Source of the DNA: Larus michahellis | Lineage: Eukaryota > Chordata > Aves > Charadriiformes > Laridae | Length of the DNA stretch: 64,000 nt | Direction of reading: 5' to 3' | Assembly: GCF_964199755.1 (NCBI RefSeq) | Contig: NC_133901.1 | Span: forward strand, 10,865,556 to 10,929,555 | Part shown: in pieces, positions 12,201-62,787 of the stretch | How the letters are laid out: every line of letters begins with the position of its first letter | How positions within the stretch are numbered: the first letter of the stretch is position 1 | Notes under the pieces: generated by a model | Told to the model about the DNA's origin: nothing | Databases searched by the model: none | The model's input: only the letters and a program-made list of their open reading frames with translations | Position numbers and translations under genes: made by a program

Positions 12201-15200
12201 ACACCCTGGAGGAGTTCTCCTATGAACACTTCAGGTGAAGCTCTCTGTGTAGTGTGCACCCTAGGAAAGTTTTTGTTGATCTGCAGTGATCCTTAAAGCC
12301 TAGGATGTAATGGCATCTCCCATTTCTGATGGGGTGTCTTCTCTTTGTTCACTGTAATTAAGCATGACTTTGGATGCGCAGAGATTCTGGCACATGGCCT
12401 ACTTGTATCTTTTGTCTGCAGAAATGCAAAGGGAAGGGTAGAAGAACTCCAGCTGGACTTATTTCTTTCCAGCAGGCCTTATTCTTACTTCTCACCCCCT
12501 TCTTCAGCACTTACCAGCTAGTGAGGATACACAACATCTCAGGCCTCAGATAGTAAAGGAAAAATTAGTTTTCTAAACCTTCTCTTCTTTTAGCAAGGCT
12601 TCTCCCTTCTGGATCTACAAGAAACTATATTTTCCTGTTCCTGTTGACCTGCATAATCAAAGGAGATATGTGATCACTGTCTTGGGAAAGAACATGCTTA
12701 GAGATAAGTCTTTGTGATAATGACCTCTTATGTTCATAGCAGTACTGATCCAGTAATTTTGTCTTCATCCAGGACTCCTGAGAAGGAATCCCTCAGCAAA
12801 GCTGTTCTCCAGAAATCCCGTGGGCGCAGTCAGCTGTGGGCACACTCTAAGGAGCCTTTGAAACAGCCCTTGCTGAAGACAGCGTGCACGGACCCTGATC
12901 TTCGGGACCTGGCTTGCCAGGCCTTCATTGATATCCTTTCACTCTTCTCTTTGGGATCCGAGAGCACTCAGGGGAAGGAAGAGCTAACTACCTCCACTAA
13001 ACTCACCTCCATTGATATAATACTGCATCCACATTACAGGGGATGCCTTACATCAAGGTGGGGAGTATCAACTCCGCACAACTTAGCATTGTTTCCCTGC
13101 TCTACAGAGGAAAGGTTCCTGTTCCCTCCCAACGCTCCACAACTCCTGATGGCTCACTTAACTGAGAATGTGGTTTTAGGAGTGAGTGAAATCTACTGTG
13201 TATGCCCAGAGCAAGCAGCTAATACAGTACAAGTCACAGCCAAGCAGTGACTGCTGTATAGGGAAAGGGGGCAGGGGACAGGCAGGGAGTATGTTCCAGA
13301 CCTTCCTCCCAGTATTTGCCACTTAAACATCAACAGAGTCACTAATGTGTTAGGATCCAGGTGAGACCTCCCATTTACCTTCCAAAATTGGCCTGCTTTT
13401 GTCCTTAACAGCACATTCACCCATCATGAAATTCATGGGGGACTATCCCTCAAAACACGCACACTCCTCTGTGGAAGTCACTGACCAGATCTTCATAGCA
13501 GCTATCCAGGAGGAGGTCCTGCGGGATGAGATTTACTGTCAGATTATGAAGCAACTGACTGAGAACAGAAACAGGTACTCACCTGGGTGCAAACACCCTG
13601 CTTCTGCAGAGCCAGGGCTCAAGTACAGGAATCCCTGCTACACCTGTGATGGAGTGGGGGCACATGGGAAGAATGGCCGAACGTTGGAGTGACACCTTCC
13701 CTTCCCCCTTTTTCCAGGCAGTGCTGTGGGGCTCACCTTTGCAGAGCACGCAGGACCGCTGACTGGCAGCGCGACCGTTTCTTGTCTCCCTTGAGCTGCT
13801 GCTTTGCTCCCATCAGCTTTCAATGCTCATCTGCGTGCAGCAGGGTGGGAGGCAGGTGCTACTGAAGCCCTCTTACTCCCAGGATAGCCTGCGGAGAAAA
13901 CATGGCACTGCACAGAGCTTCTGAATGCTTTCAGTGACTGCGCTGCCAGCCCTCCATTTATTTTAAGTTTCCCAGTGACGGTATTTCCCTCCTATTAAGC
14001 AGACAGTTCACACTAGATCTTTTACCACCAGGGAATACTTTGGTGTAGTTATGTTAATTAGGTTACACACCTGGCTTGCAGAATAGATGGGTTACGCAGG
14101 CCTGGCCCATGCATAAGTTGCTGAAACAGGCTGGTGTTTTGCTTCCCCATCCATAAAATGATAATTATTTGACCTATTTCCAGGGGAACTGAATTGCAAA
14201 AAGCAGCTTAAAATAATACTAATTATTAATAAAATGGTTTGTCTCTTTCTAGCTGCAATGTGTCACTGCAAAAGTTAGAGAAGGAGCTTTTATTAGTTTC
14301 TTTTCTCTCTTACTGTTCCACGGATATTAAACTTAGTGGAACTTTTACCATGTGTGTAACTATTAAACAGTAAATTCTCTTGCATGCAGTAAAACTTACA
14401 GGCTATTTAATGCATAGTCTGTAACCATGGTGCCAGTGCCATGCCTGATGTACTCTTGCCAATTTAGTCCAGTGGGTCATTCACTGTTTTGAGAGGGATC
14501 ACTGATGTGGAAAAAACAGTGCTTGAAAGGTGTCTATTTCCATATATATTCATTAGACCAGCCAGAGCAAAAAATCTTTCACCCTTCCCAGGCTACTGCC
14601 CTGTGGGCCATGGACACAAACACCACTGATCTCTAGAGCATAAATGCGATTAAAATAGTGTGTCTTCATCTGCAAAATCAGAAAAGTAAATGGGAATAAA
14701 GAAGCCAGGACCTCTTTATTCAGCAGAGCCTGCCCATTCAGAGGCAGACCTGCTGGCTTTCCCAACCAAAACCAGACCATTTAGTGTTTCAGAGCAATCC
14801 CTAGGACACAGCTGAAGCGCGTTCTGCTCCTAGCTTTGAAAGTAGAATGACTGACCACATCCTGGCTGCAGAGCCGTTCTAACTGGTGAGGGTGAGATGC
14901 CAGAAGAGCTTCAACTGGCAGATTTCACAGGTCTAGAGGCTGGATGAACTGGCTTTCTGCCTGAAAATTGTACAGACTTGATCTGGAGTTTTTAAGAACT
15001 GTAACTAACTCATCACACGATGTCATCTACCTGCTCATTTTTCAGAGCAGGAGTATGCGTAAGGGAAAGTCATTTTTTTTTGCCCTGAGCAAAGCTGGCT
15101 AGCACAGAAAGCAGGTGAATACAAGCAGCTCATAAAATACAATCCACATAAACGTGAGCTTGAACAGCAAATTGACAGTGGCTTTCCATGAGGATGGTAC

Positions 15201-40000: not shown

Positions 40001-43000
40001 CAGTATAGTCTTCCTTGCACATGCACTTGTACTAATTCCAAGGTAACAAATTATTGCCATCTCCAGGACTACAGAGAAGCATGCAGCTGGCAGTAGGCAG
40101 TGAGTGGACATACACTCAAACCTAGTCTTTTTTGTGCCATAAACATGCAGGGTACCTAGGCAATGCATGGAGTAAGAAGGCCCCTCTGTGGCCGTACAAA
40201 GAAATTTCAGTTTCTGAATTTCATTCAGTCTCCCTTCTGCTGACTTTTGTGTCTTCAACTGTGAAATAAACAGAATTGGTCCAGCATATTAATCTCTAGC
40301 TATTGTAGCCTTCTGTCCACCTGAAAGTGACAGCAGCCAAACAAAAGATGGTAATTACCTTGTAATTTTGCTTACATTTTCCAATATATTGGTGTGTTTT
40401 TAATCCCATTTCAGCTTCTTGATTAGCCACCAATATTTTTAGACATCTGAATAATCAGTTCTGTTGGGAAGCTGGATGCATTGCGTAATGCCTTGGATAA
40501 ACTGCCTAGGGAGGTACGATTTCAGCATATAGCATAGCTTCTGCTCAAGATTAAAAATTTTGTCTAACAATGTCAGCAACCATCTTAAAATTTTAATCTC
40601 AGAAGAGGAAAATGGATGTATTTAAAGATGAATTTAATATTATTGAGGAAGAGAGTGAGTTATACTGGGAGAACAAGAACGCTGCAGGGAAGGATGACAC
40701 TTTGACAAGTAACCGACAGCATAGGCATTACTAATAATCTTTTCTGAGTCAATTCAGTGCTTTTTGCTGTTCAAACGAGACGCTGCTACCCATCTGAAGA
40801 GTTGCCTCCTATATTGAAACTTGCCTTAAATACAGGACTTCAGACTAAAATAATTCTCAAAGATTTTCAGGAACTCTGTGGTTTTTTTAATAACTGCAAT
40901 ACCTGACCTGTCTTCCACCTCTTCTAGGAACATGACAGATATTCTAAGGCAGGTCACCTTACAACAGATACCTGTGCTCATAAAAGCTGGCTCATTGGGA
41001 GCTCTTCAGTCCTCAATCAGGCTTCCAAAATAAACATAGCAAATACTTTCTAGATAGACGTACAGAACCCGCTTTCACTCTTCCATTAACCAGAGACATA
41101 GGTATTTCACTGCTCTGTTATTCAACTGATCTCGGCACAGGTTGGAGACAAGCCCATAATCAGCTAGCTGGCTCTTCATAGTGGTTCCTTCAACATGATT
41201 TAATGGTCTGGAACGCCCAGGCAAGGAGGTGGTATTCAGAATTTTAATATAAGGGATTGAACTCAGACTGACATGTCGTATCAAATATCAGTATTAGCAA
41301 ACAGGAAATATCACTGATTTCCATGTGTGGTTTTTTGTGTGGTGGTTGTTTTTTTTTTTTTTTCCACAAAACCAGGCTCTTTTGTAATATACTGTCTCAA
41401 TTCTTTCAGGTTTTTGCATGTTTTTTACGCAAAACTGTGGTGAAAAATGAATGGCCCAGCAGATCCATCAAGCCTACTCTTGAATTGCTCAAATCAATCA
41501 AAGTTCTCTTTGGAAACGTCAGAGCAATGTGGCAAAGAGACACACCTCGAGAACATCCTTTTTGCCACTTTCTACTTCCTGGACTTCATCCTGGCTTTTG
41601 TTGGCAATGCCCTGGCTCTTTGGCTCTTCGTCCGGGACCAAAAGTCCGGCACACCTGCCAATGTTTTCCTGATGCATCTTGCTGTGGCTGACCTGTCCTT
41701 CGTGCTGGTACTTCCCACCCGGCTGGTGTACCATTTTTCTGGTAATCACTGGCCATTTGGTGAGATCCCATGCAGACTCACTGGCTTCCTTTTTTACCTC
41801 AACATGTATGCCAGTATCTACTTCCTCACGTGCATCAGCGTTGACCGTTTCCTAGCCATTGTGCACCCTGTGAAGTCCATCAAGCTCCGCAGGTCCCTTT
41901 ATGCCCATTTGGCATGTGCCTTTCTATGGGTTATAGTTGGGGTTGCAATGGCACCTCTGCTGCTCAGTGTGCAGACTGTCAAGATGAAAAACACAACCGT
42001 CTGCCTGCAGCTCTACAGAGAAAAGGCATCACGTCATGCCCTTGTGTCCTTAGCAGTGGCATTCACCTTCCCATTTGTTACTATAATGACTTGCTACTTA
42101 TTAATCATCCAGAGCCTGAAGGGTGGAAACAGAGTTGAGAAACACCTGAAGGAAAAAGCTATCAAAATGATCATCATGGTCCTGATGATCTTTTTGATTT
42201 GCTTTGTACCTTACCATGTCAATCGCTACATTTATATTCTCCATTACAACGGGACCAAAACTTCCTGTGAAACGCAGCGTCTTCTAGCCCTCAGTAACCG
42301 CATCACTTCCTGCCTCACAAGTCTAAATGGTGCCTTTGACCCAGTCATGTATTTCTTTGTAGCTGAGAAATTCCGTGAGGCTTTGTGCAATCTGTTTTGT
42401 GTTAAGACAACTGTAATGTTGCCTCAAACATATGAGGGTAAGACAAACGAAAGTTCACTAAGCGCTAAATCTGAACTGTGAACATGACTCTTGTCACTGC
42501 TCTGACTTCAGAACACTCTATTCCACCAAAACCAGCTGGGAGCGCAAATATGCAGCGAGACAGTCCACCCAGAGTCCAACTCACTCAGAGGAGGGAAGTT
42601 CTGTTGGTTTTATGGGACTGCAATCAGCAAGAACCCCTCTGAAAACAGAGATCACATGTTCTTGTCCGACTGAAACTGCAAACAGAAGTACAGTTCCACT
42701 GATTTCCAAGATGTGAAACTGAGGGCTGAACACTTAGGAATAAGGAAGGGAGCAAAGAGGCTATTAAACAGACTTTTTTTCTTTTAAAAAAAAAAACAAA
42801 AACCAACAACAAAACTTAATTCCCAAAGCACTCAGCAACGACTCCTCCTCTGCACAATGCATATAGCCTACTTTAAAATTTTATATTGTGCCAGCAGTAG
42901 AGGTCCACTCCTGCGACAGACCCGCCTGATGAAGAGACAGCACACATGAAGAGACATTACACGTCACGTTGAAGACTCTGAATTCAAAGTGTTTACACAT

Positions 43001-61899: not shown

Positions 61900-62130
61900 C
61901 GCAGTTTCAGAGGGCAGAGGGGAGCAGACGGCGACTACTCCCCTCAGCCGCTGGCCGCCCGCCTCAGAGCCGCCGGCGCACGCGCACCGCCCCCTGTGAG
62001 GGCGGGCTCCCCCCCCACCTCCGCGGGAGAGGGCCGGTGACCCGGATGCAGCTACTCCGCAAGATGGCGGCGGGGCGGGCTGGTGGCGTGCCGTAGCGGC
62101 GCCGAGCGAGCGGTTACCCCGGCCCCCGCC
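61900..62130 (+). promoter_or_regulatory. SFT2D3: SFT2D3 CpG promoter with YY1 site
   Basis: Very G+C- and CpG-rich, no TATA box. AAGATGGCGGC at 62061-62071 is a full YY1 consensus and GGGGCGGGC an Sp1-type site right after it. YY1 sites of this kind usually sit just downstream of the start site, so transcription probably starts near 62040-62060. The ATG inside the YY1 site opens a 10-codon ORF ending at 62096. Confidence 0.65.
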
Positions 62131-62787
62131 ATGGCGGACCTGGGCCGGCAGTTGCAGGAGTACCTGGTACAGTCGAAGGCGGCCGCCGCCTCCACTGCGG
62201 CCCCCGCGCCGCTACCGCCGCCGCCCTCCGCCGGCTGCTCGCAGGAGGAGGCGGGCAGCAGCCTGGGGGCCTGGCTGGGCCCGCTGAACCCCTTCCCGGC
62301 GGCGGCCGCCTCGGAGCCGGGCCGGGGCTGGCCGTGGTTGGCGGAGCCGGACCCCTGGCTACCGGGGCTGTCGCGGTGGCAGCGCTTGGCGGGCAGCGGG
62401 CTGTGCCTGCTTCTGGCCGCCCTCTGCTTCGGGCTGGCCGCCCTGTACGCGCCGCTGCTGCTGCTCCGCGCCCGCAAGTTCGCCCTGCTCTGGTCCCTGG
62501 GCTCCCTCTGCGGCCTGGCTGCTGCCGCCCTGCTGCGGGGGCCCGCCCGTCTGCTGCGGGAGCCCGGCGGCGGCTCCCTGCTCTACGTCGGCGCCCTGGC
62601 CGGCACCCTGTACGCGGCGTTGGGGCTGCGCAGCACCTTCCTGACGGTGCTGGGCGCTGCCGCGCAGCTGGGCGCCGCCGCCCTCGCCCTCCTGGCCGGA
62701 CTGCCCGGGGGAGCCGCCGGCCTGCACCGCCTGGGCGGCCTCGGCTGCGCCGCGCTGCGCCGCCGCGGGAAAGCCCTGCCGGTGTGA
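62131..62787 (+). CDS. SFT2D3: SFT2 domain-containing protein 3 (vesicle transport)
   Basis: Single-exon frame of 218 residues. It starts MADLGRQLQEYLVQSK in a strong GCCATGG context; the frame opens further upstream but has no earlier ATG. A Pro/Ala-rich cytosolic segment (about residues 17-80) is followed by four hydrophobic helices, about 87-108, 116-135, 149-166 and 170-192, and a basic tail ending KALPV. The core LLAALCFGLAALYAP and LRARKFALLWSLGS matches human SFT2D3 as I recall it. Family role: SFT2/Got1-like Golgi membrane proteins help vesicles from endosomes fuse with the Golgi; direct evidence for SFT2D3 is thin. Human SFT2D3 is also intronless. The whole gene lies in a CpG island. 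Confidence 0.94.
   Translation: MADLGRQLQEYLVQSKAAAASTAAPAPLPPPPSAGCSQEEAGSSLGAWLGPLNPFPAAAASEPGRGWPWLAEPDPWLPGLSRWQRLAGSGLCLLLAALCFGLAALYAPLLLLRARKFALLWSLGSLCGLAAAALLRGPARLLREPGGGSLLYVGALAGTLYAALGLRSTFLTVLGAAAQLGAAALALLAGLPGGAAGLHRLGGLGCAALRRRGKALPV

Follow-up and report, generated by a model that had tools for sequence, protein, structure and literature searches.

MYO7B and its neighbors

The window, which is the whole 64-kb stretch of DNA that was analyzed, contains the 3′ part of MYO7B on the forward strand (positions 32 to 24995). This part was modeled as 26 exons encoding 1,200 residues followed by a stop codon, based on tblastn matches to the genome's own MYO7A locus, open frames, and splice-site placement. 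Matches to the MYO7A locus were obtained by tblastn for 20 of the 26 exons, and solved MYO7 chains align over five of the remaining six. The last one (1592 to 1672), without tblastn or chain support, is presumably a MYO7B exon, as recognized by its resemblance to MYO7A sequence.

The second MyTH4 domain scored higher against MYO7B than against MYO7A (122.5 versus 106.3 bits), as did the first MyTH4-FERM part (319.6 versus 309.6 bits). The last 95 residues showed a slight lean to MYO7A (151.1 bits versus 148.8 bits for MYO7B). A clear, separate MYO7A gene is located on contig C1, and the window belongs to contig C10. The neighborhood also supports this identity, since the genes expected next to MYO7B were found downstream. 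In human, these neighbors are LIMS2, GPR17, and SFT2D3. An intronless open reading frame (ORF) at 41444 to 42478 on the forward strand, which we take to be GPR17, scored 534.6 bits against 7y89, a uracil nucleotide/cysteinyl leukotriene receptor. A LIM domain was detected in three of the four minus-strand ORFs tried downstream of MYO7B, and these exons are presumably those of LIMS2. A Got1/Sft2-family ORF in one piece (62041 to 62784, forward strand), lying in a GC-rich stretch, is assumed to be SFT2D3. The receptor ORF sits among the minus-strand LIM-domain exons. An NCBIfam scan of four neighbor ORFs returned a single match, far under the cutoff, and an Rfam scan of the 64-kb window returned none.

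The MYO7B model contains 25 complete introns, 24 of which fit GT-AG ends, the splice search for these 24 having offered only GT or GC donors and AG ends. The remaining intron (12931 to 13420) has AT-AC ends. Compared with the U12 consensus, none of the 24 GT-AG introns exceeded 4 of 6 matches over donor positions +3 to +8 or 6 of 8 matches in the branch motif, versus 6 of 6 and 8 of 8, respectively, in the AT-AC intron. The GT-AG intron at 242 to 1152 has a donor, GTATCTTGC, with 4 of 6 U12-like positions, and it lacks a branch motif resembling that of U12 introns (best, 4 of 8). The equivalent point of the first MyTH4 domain of MYO7B was considered as a candidate site for a second U12-type intron and rejected, as the exon there begins at 1153 and follows a GT-AG intron that lies at a different position.

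The AT-AC intron of the second MyTH4 domain

The intron is 490 bases long, lies in phase 1 on the forward strand, and interrupts the second MyTH4 domain of MYO7B between an upstream exon of 158 bases (12773 to 12930; 3′ end, GCC TTC ATT G) and a downstream exon of 154 bases (13421 to 13574; 5′ end, CC ATC ATG AAA TTC ATG GGG GAC). Its 5′ splice site, ATATCCTTT (12931 to 12939), conforms to the U12-type consensus ATATCCTT, and its branch-point motif, TCCTTAAC (13402 to 13409), conforms to the branch consensus TCCTTRAC. The branch A (13408) is located 12 bases from the last intron base, the 3′ splice site being the terminal AC at 13419 to 13420. This distance is within the optimum of 11 to 13 nucleotides given for U12-type introns in the available text of PMC3584512.

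Joining position 12930 to position 13421 restored the second MyTH4 domain, with an Ala codon split in phase 1 (G/CC). In the 107 spliced residues, residues 4 to 107 aligned without gaps to the MYO7B chains 5mv7, 5xbf, and 5mv8 (120.2 to 122.5 bits), and residues 4 to 106 aligned without gaps to the MYO7A chain 5mv9 (106.3 bits). The lack of any gap in these alignments fixes the AC end at 13420 to the base. Within a box enclosing the two intron ends, we also scored every join that kept the frame and contained no stop codon against two templates. The AT-AC join had the top score (160) among 2,104 joins. The runners-up overall (152 or less) did not have known splice-site ends, the best AT-AG and GC-AG joins reached 134 and 104, respectively, and none of the 2,104 joins was of the GT-AG type. 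The initial annotation had proposed this donor, this branch motif with its A 12 bases from the AC, and exact restoration of the frame, all of which were correct to the base. Its assignment of a U12-type AT-AC intron to the MyTH4 region of MYO7B is supported by the chain alignments, the join scan, and the gene model, and its warning that a gene finder limited to GT-AG pairs would err at this place agrees with the absence of in-frame GT-AG joins in the scanned box.

The weight of the motifs themselves was evaluated with two null models. In order-1 Markov sequence, scanned on both strands for a donor and a branch motif with an AC at most 5 kb apart, the mean was 0.72 motif pairs per 64 kb, and at least one pair was present on 109 of 400 simulated strands. 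The actual 64-kb window contains one such pair, which is the 12931-to-13420 intron itself. Since the pair is not rare in Markov sequence, the mere presence of the motifs carries little weight, and the motif pair was dropped as stand-alone evidence. Requiring the pair to be in frame and no more than 30 bases from either exon end reduced its occurrence to 1 in 200,000 random introns. The intron ends are thus fixed by the protein evidence and the splice signals together rather than by the motifs alone.

The small nuclear RNAs of the minor spliceosome have genes in the host genome. U12 (150.2 bits), U6atac (134.5 bits), U11 (113.2 bits), and U4atac (87.8 bits) were each represented by one match listed over the Rfam cutoff. 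Duplex predictions, in which the U6atac partner was the motif of the host genome's own U6atac, gave −10.1 kcal/mol for the pairing of the MYO7B donor with U6atac, −6.4 kcal/mol for U11, and +1.3 kcal/mol for U1.

Other ways of removing the intron were weighed against these data. In the first, the AT donor would be joined to the AG at 13410 to 13411, generating an AT-AG intron and adding three residues. This join is in frame and stop-free, and it is the best outside AT-AC among five classes of intron ends (134 versus 160), but the AG is located only 3 bases past the branch A, far from the 11-to-13-base optimum, and AT-AG pairs are described as disfavored in the accessible portion of PMC3584512. 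The three MYO7B chains and the MYO7A chain have no insert at this point, and the AG appears to be unused on this protein evidence. We consider its use very improbable. Removal by the major spliceosome, whether GT-AG or GC-AG ends are used or the AT-AC intron is of the U2 type, is a shade less probable still. U2-type AT-AC introns do exist, according to the part of PMC2831892 available, but the donor of the MYO7B intron has the U12 consensus rather than that of a U2-type donor, and its predicted pairing is unfavorable with the U1 end and favorable with U6atac. The GT-AG and GC-AG alternatives were rejected on the join scan, the former being absent from the scanned box and the latter scoring poorly (104 at best versus 160). 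Finally, it is scarcely credible that the motifs arose by coincidence or that the gene copy is nonfunctional. By itself, the motif pair has a chance expectation of 0.72 per window, but it is found at the 1-in-200,000 level under the constrained null, the motifs recur in MYO7A, and the 1,200-residue model is intact across its 26 exons.

Together, these sequence data indicate that the segment from 12931 to 13420 is almost certainly a genuine minor-class spliceosomal intron of the U12 type, AT-AC subtype. As such, it is an ordinary representative of a kind of intron that is already known. The initial annotation had called AT-AC U12-type introns rare, a statement that needs to be qualified, since they are less rare among minor introns, of which they account for about 26% in human (available text of PMC10639083).

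Counterparts in MYO7A and MYO15 genes

The host genome (1,405,500,149 bases in 616 contigs) was searched for related sites, and a Pfam MyTH4 search returned 19 matching exons. The MYO7A gene on contig C1 was identified by a score of 189.1 bits against 5mv9 versus 94.8 bits against the MYO7B chain 5mv7. Its MyTH4 domain is interrupted at the same codon and in the same phase as that of MYO7B by an AT-AC intron with U12 signals (G/ATATCCTTC ... TCCTTGACTCTTGCCTCCCAC/CA). The donor ATATCCTTC is at position 394 of the locus (L002), the branch motif is TCCTTGAC, and the AC end is at 1498. Both motifs conform to the consensus sequences given above for MYO7B. The distance from the branch A to the intron end, counted by hand, is 14 bases, which is just outside the 11-to-13 optimum. 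In the join scan, the AT-AC pair had the top score (171) among 858 in-frame joins, followed overall by a join without known ends (161), with AT-AG, GC-AG, and GT-AG joins reaching 141, 121, and 116, respectively. The comparison with MYO7A that had been suggested for the MYO7B intron therefore provided strong support within the same genome, as it revealed an AT-AC U12-type intron with matching codon and phase. This same-genome counterpart is a new observation of this analysis. At L002:1497 to 1501, CAG comes directly after the terminal AC (CAC/CAG); the AG lies 3 bases beyond the AC, and splicing to it would cost one codon. No first MyTH4 domain was found for MYO7A within the genomic stretch examined.

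Conservation of the U12 signals at the same codon and in the same phase in MYO7A and MYO7B argues that the intron predates the duplication of these genes. In the simplest reading, the AT-AC intron is probably older than the duplication, and both genes would have inherited it from their common ancestor. No clear similarity was detected by blastn inside the two introns (best piece, 20 bases with 85% identity; E = 0.059). The presence of the AT-AC intron in both genes marks descent from a time before the duplication.

An intron at the MYO7 site and in the MYO7 phase was found in two more genes, MYO15 (contig C12) and its paralog (contig C18; L027/L028). The C12 gene was identified as MYO15 by an upstream motor exon scoring 53.9 bits against MYO15 chains versus 33.9 bits for the next best. 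Its site (L020) reads EAFQ G/CC VMKFMGD, with GT-AG ends and donor GTAGGTGAG, and TCCTTRA is absent near the end of the intron. In the C18 paralog, the site reads KNFK A/CT LMRFMGD, with GT-AG ends, donor GTAAGTACC, and acceptor TTTGCAG, and TCCTTRAY does not occur in the 19 kb scanned. A single genome thereby presents, at one site, AT-AC U12-type introns in MYO7A and MYO7B and U2-type GT-AG ends in both MYO15-type genes. Predicted duplexes agreed with the donor classes. The MYO15 donor gave −11.1 kcal/mol with U1, +0.3 kcal/mol with U6atac, and −3.6 kcal/mol with U11, versus −5.7 kcal/mol with U6atac, −5.5 kcal/mol with U11, and +1.3 kcal/mol with U1 for the MYO7A donor, which pairs less well than that of MYO7B. 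The U12 branch duplexes separated the classes poorly (MYO7B, −6.5; MYO7A, −9.1; MYO15, −4.3 kcal/mol).

The likeliest story suggested by these sequences is that of an ancestral U12-type intron that would have been converted to the U2 type in the MYO15 line. The direction comes from published generalities, as the available text of PMC2831892 and PMC7367187 presents U12-to-U2 changes as the usual course of conversion, and the U2-type intron of MYO15 is read as converted on that basis. The reverse order, in which a shared U2-type intron became U12 type in the MYO7 ancestor, or in which MYO7 and MYO15 gained their introns separately, is unlikely but deserves consideration. Two GT-AG genes against two AT-AC genes leave the ancestral class unfixed, one U2-to-U12 case is described in flies, and conversion of AT-AC introns to the U2 type is infrequent (5 of 79 conversion clusters), the last two points being taken from the accessible part of PMC2831892. 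Against the reverse order stands the prevailing U12-to-U2 direction reported in the same two sources, and against separate gains stands the identity of codon and phase in MYO7 and MYO15. Vertebrate U12-type introns have been catalogued extensively and are strongly kept, with 8 cases of loss and 5 of conversion in 180 clusters (available text of PMC2831892). We lean toward the broader view that both vertebrate class VII myosins have an ancient, minor-spliceosome-dependent AT-AC intron in the C-terminal MyTH4 domain, with a U2-type intron in MYO15 at the identical codon. Having both intron states in one genome, the MYO7/MYO15 site can be used for testing U12-to-U2 conversion.

Mixed U12/U2 clusters of orthologous introns have been described before, 87 of them in U12DB according to the available text of PMC2831892. 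The MYO7/MYO15 site resembles them in that position and phase are the same, the intron class differs, and the U2 partner is GT-AG, but it involves paralogous myosins of one genome, and its U12 member belongs to the AT-AC subtype, which seldom occurs in clusters of this sort (5 of 79).

Other MyTH4 regions of the genome were compared with this site. In the first MyTH4 domain of MYO15 (L013, near 1440), a phase-0 GT-AG intron was seen by eye 2 bases 3′ of the homologous position, and this intron is possibly a shifted relic of the MyTH4 intron after domain duplication. In the first MyTH4 domain of the C18 paralog, only a matching acceptor was recognized. The exons that we take to be ARHGAP39-like (L006 and L009) and MYO10-like (L007, L008, and L011) are uninterrupted across the intron site, as judged by eye, and those presumed to be PLEKHH-like (L018 and L023) start a few codons upstream of it.

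Splicing and significance

Voltage-gated sodium and calcium channel genes are known minor-intron genes, according to the available text of PMC8767276. The intron of MYO7B is similar to the vertebrate U12-type AT-AC introns of such genes in its donor, its branch motif, its short branch-to-end distance, and its AC end, as well as in having a phase other than 0 and in being kept in the paralogs of a gene family. It differs from them in that the host is a class VII myosin and in that the related MYO15 genes are of the U2 type at the site.

No report of a U12-type intron in MYO7A or MYO7B was found in the literature searched, which was available in part and lay outside U12DB, IAOD, MIDB, and supplementary files; the human MYO7A and MYO7B introns may well be listed in these databases or in supplementary lists. 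The word “myosin” is absent from the main text of PMC2831892, PMC7367187, PMC2426677, PMC10639083, and PMC3584512. In the available passages, MYO7A and U12-type introns appear together in the context of PRPF8, and those combining myosin VIIA and U12 do not deal with a U12-type intron. A Ciona paper (PMC2760879) mentions AT-AC introns, U12-type introns, and myosin in its accessible text.

The genes concerned have distinct roles, MYO7A being a hearing and vision gene, MYO7B a brush-border gene, and MYO15 the gene of a partner stereocilia myosin. If both class VII myosins do depend on the minor spliceosome, diseases of this machinery could lower MYO7A without affecting MYO15 via that site. If the human MYO7A intron is alike, variants in its AT, TCCTTRAC, or AC elements would count as splice variants in an Usher gene, and scoring based on GT-AG ends would misjudge them. 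For MYO7B, the gene model is settled at a place where annotation restricted to GT-AG introns must fail.

The signals suggest that MYO7B depends on the minor spliceosome. According to the mechanism that we propose, the U11/U12 particle would bind the MYO7B donor and branch together, the donor would pass to U6atac, and the 3′ splice site would be the AC located about 12 bases past the branch A. According to studies reviewed in the available text of PMC3584512, the removal rate of U12-type introns is two to five times lower than that of U2-type introns, and a rate-limiting role of the MYO7B intron is possible. If the intron were not removed, translation would halt at 13248, and the remainder of the C-terminal MyTH4-FERM unit would be lost. 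Reading through the exon end into the intron yields FIDILSLF and reaches an in-frame stop codon at 13248 to 13250, bearing out the false residues DILSLF that the initial annotation had predicted for a misplaced exon.
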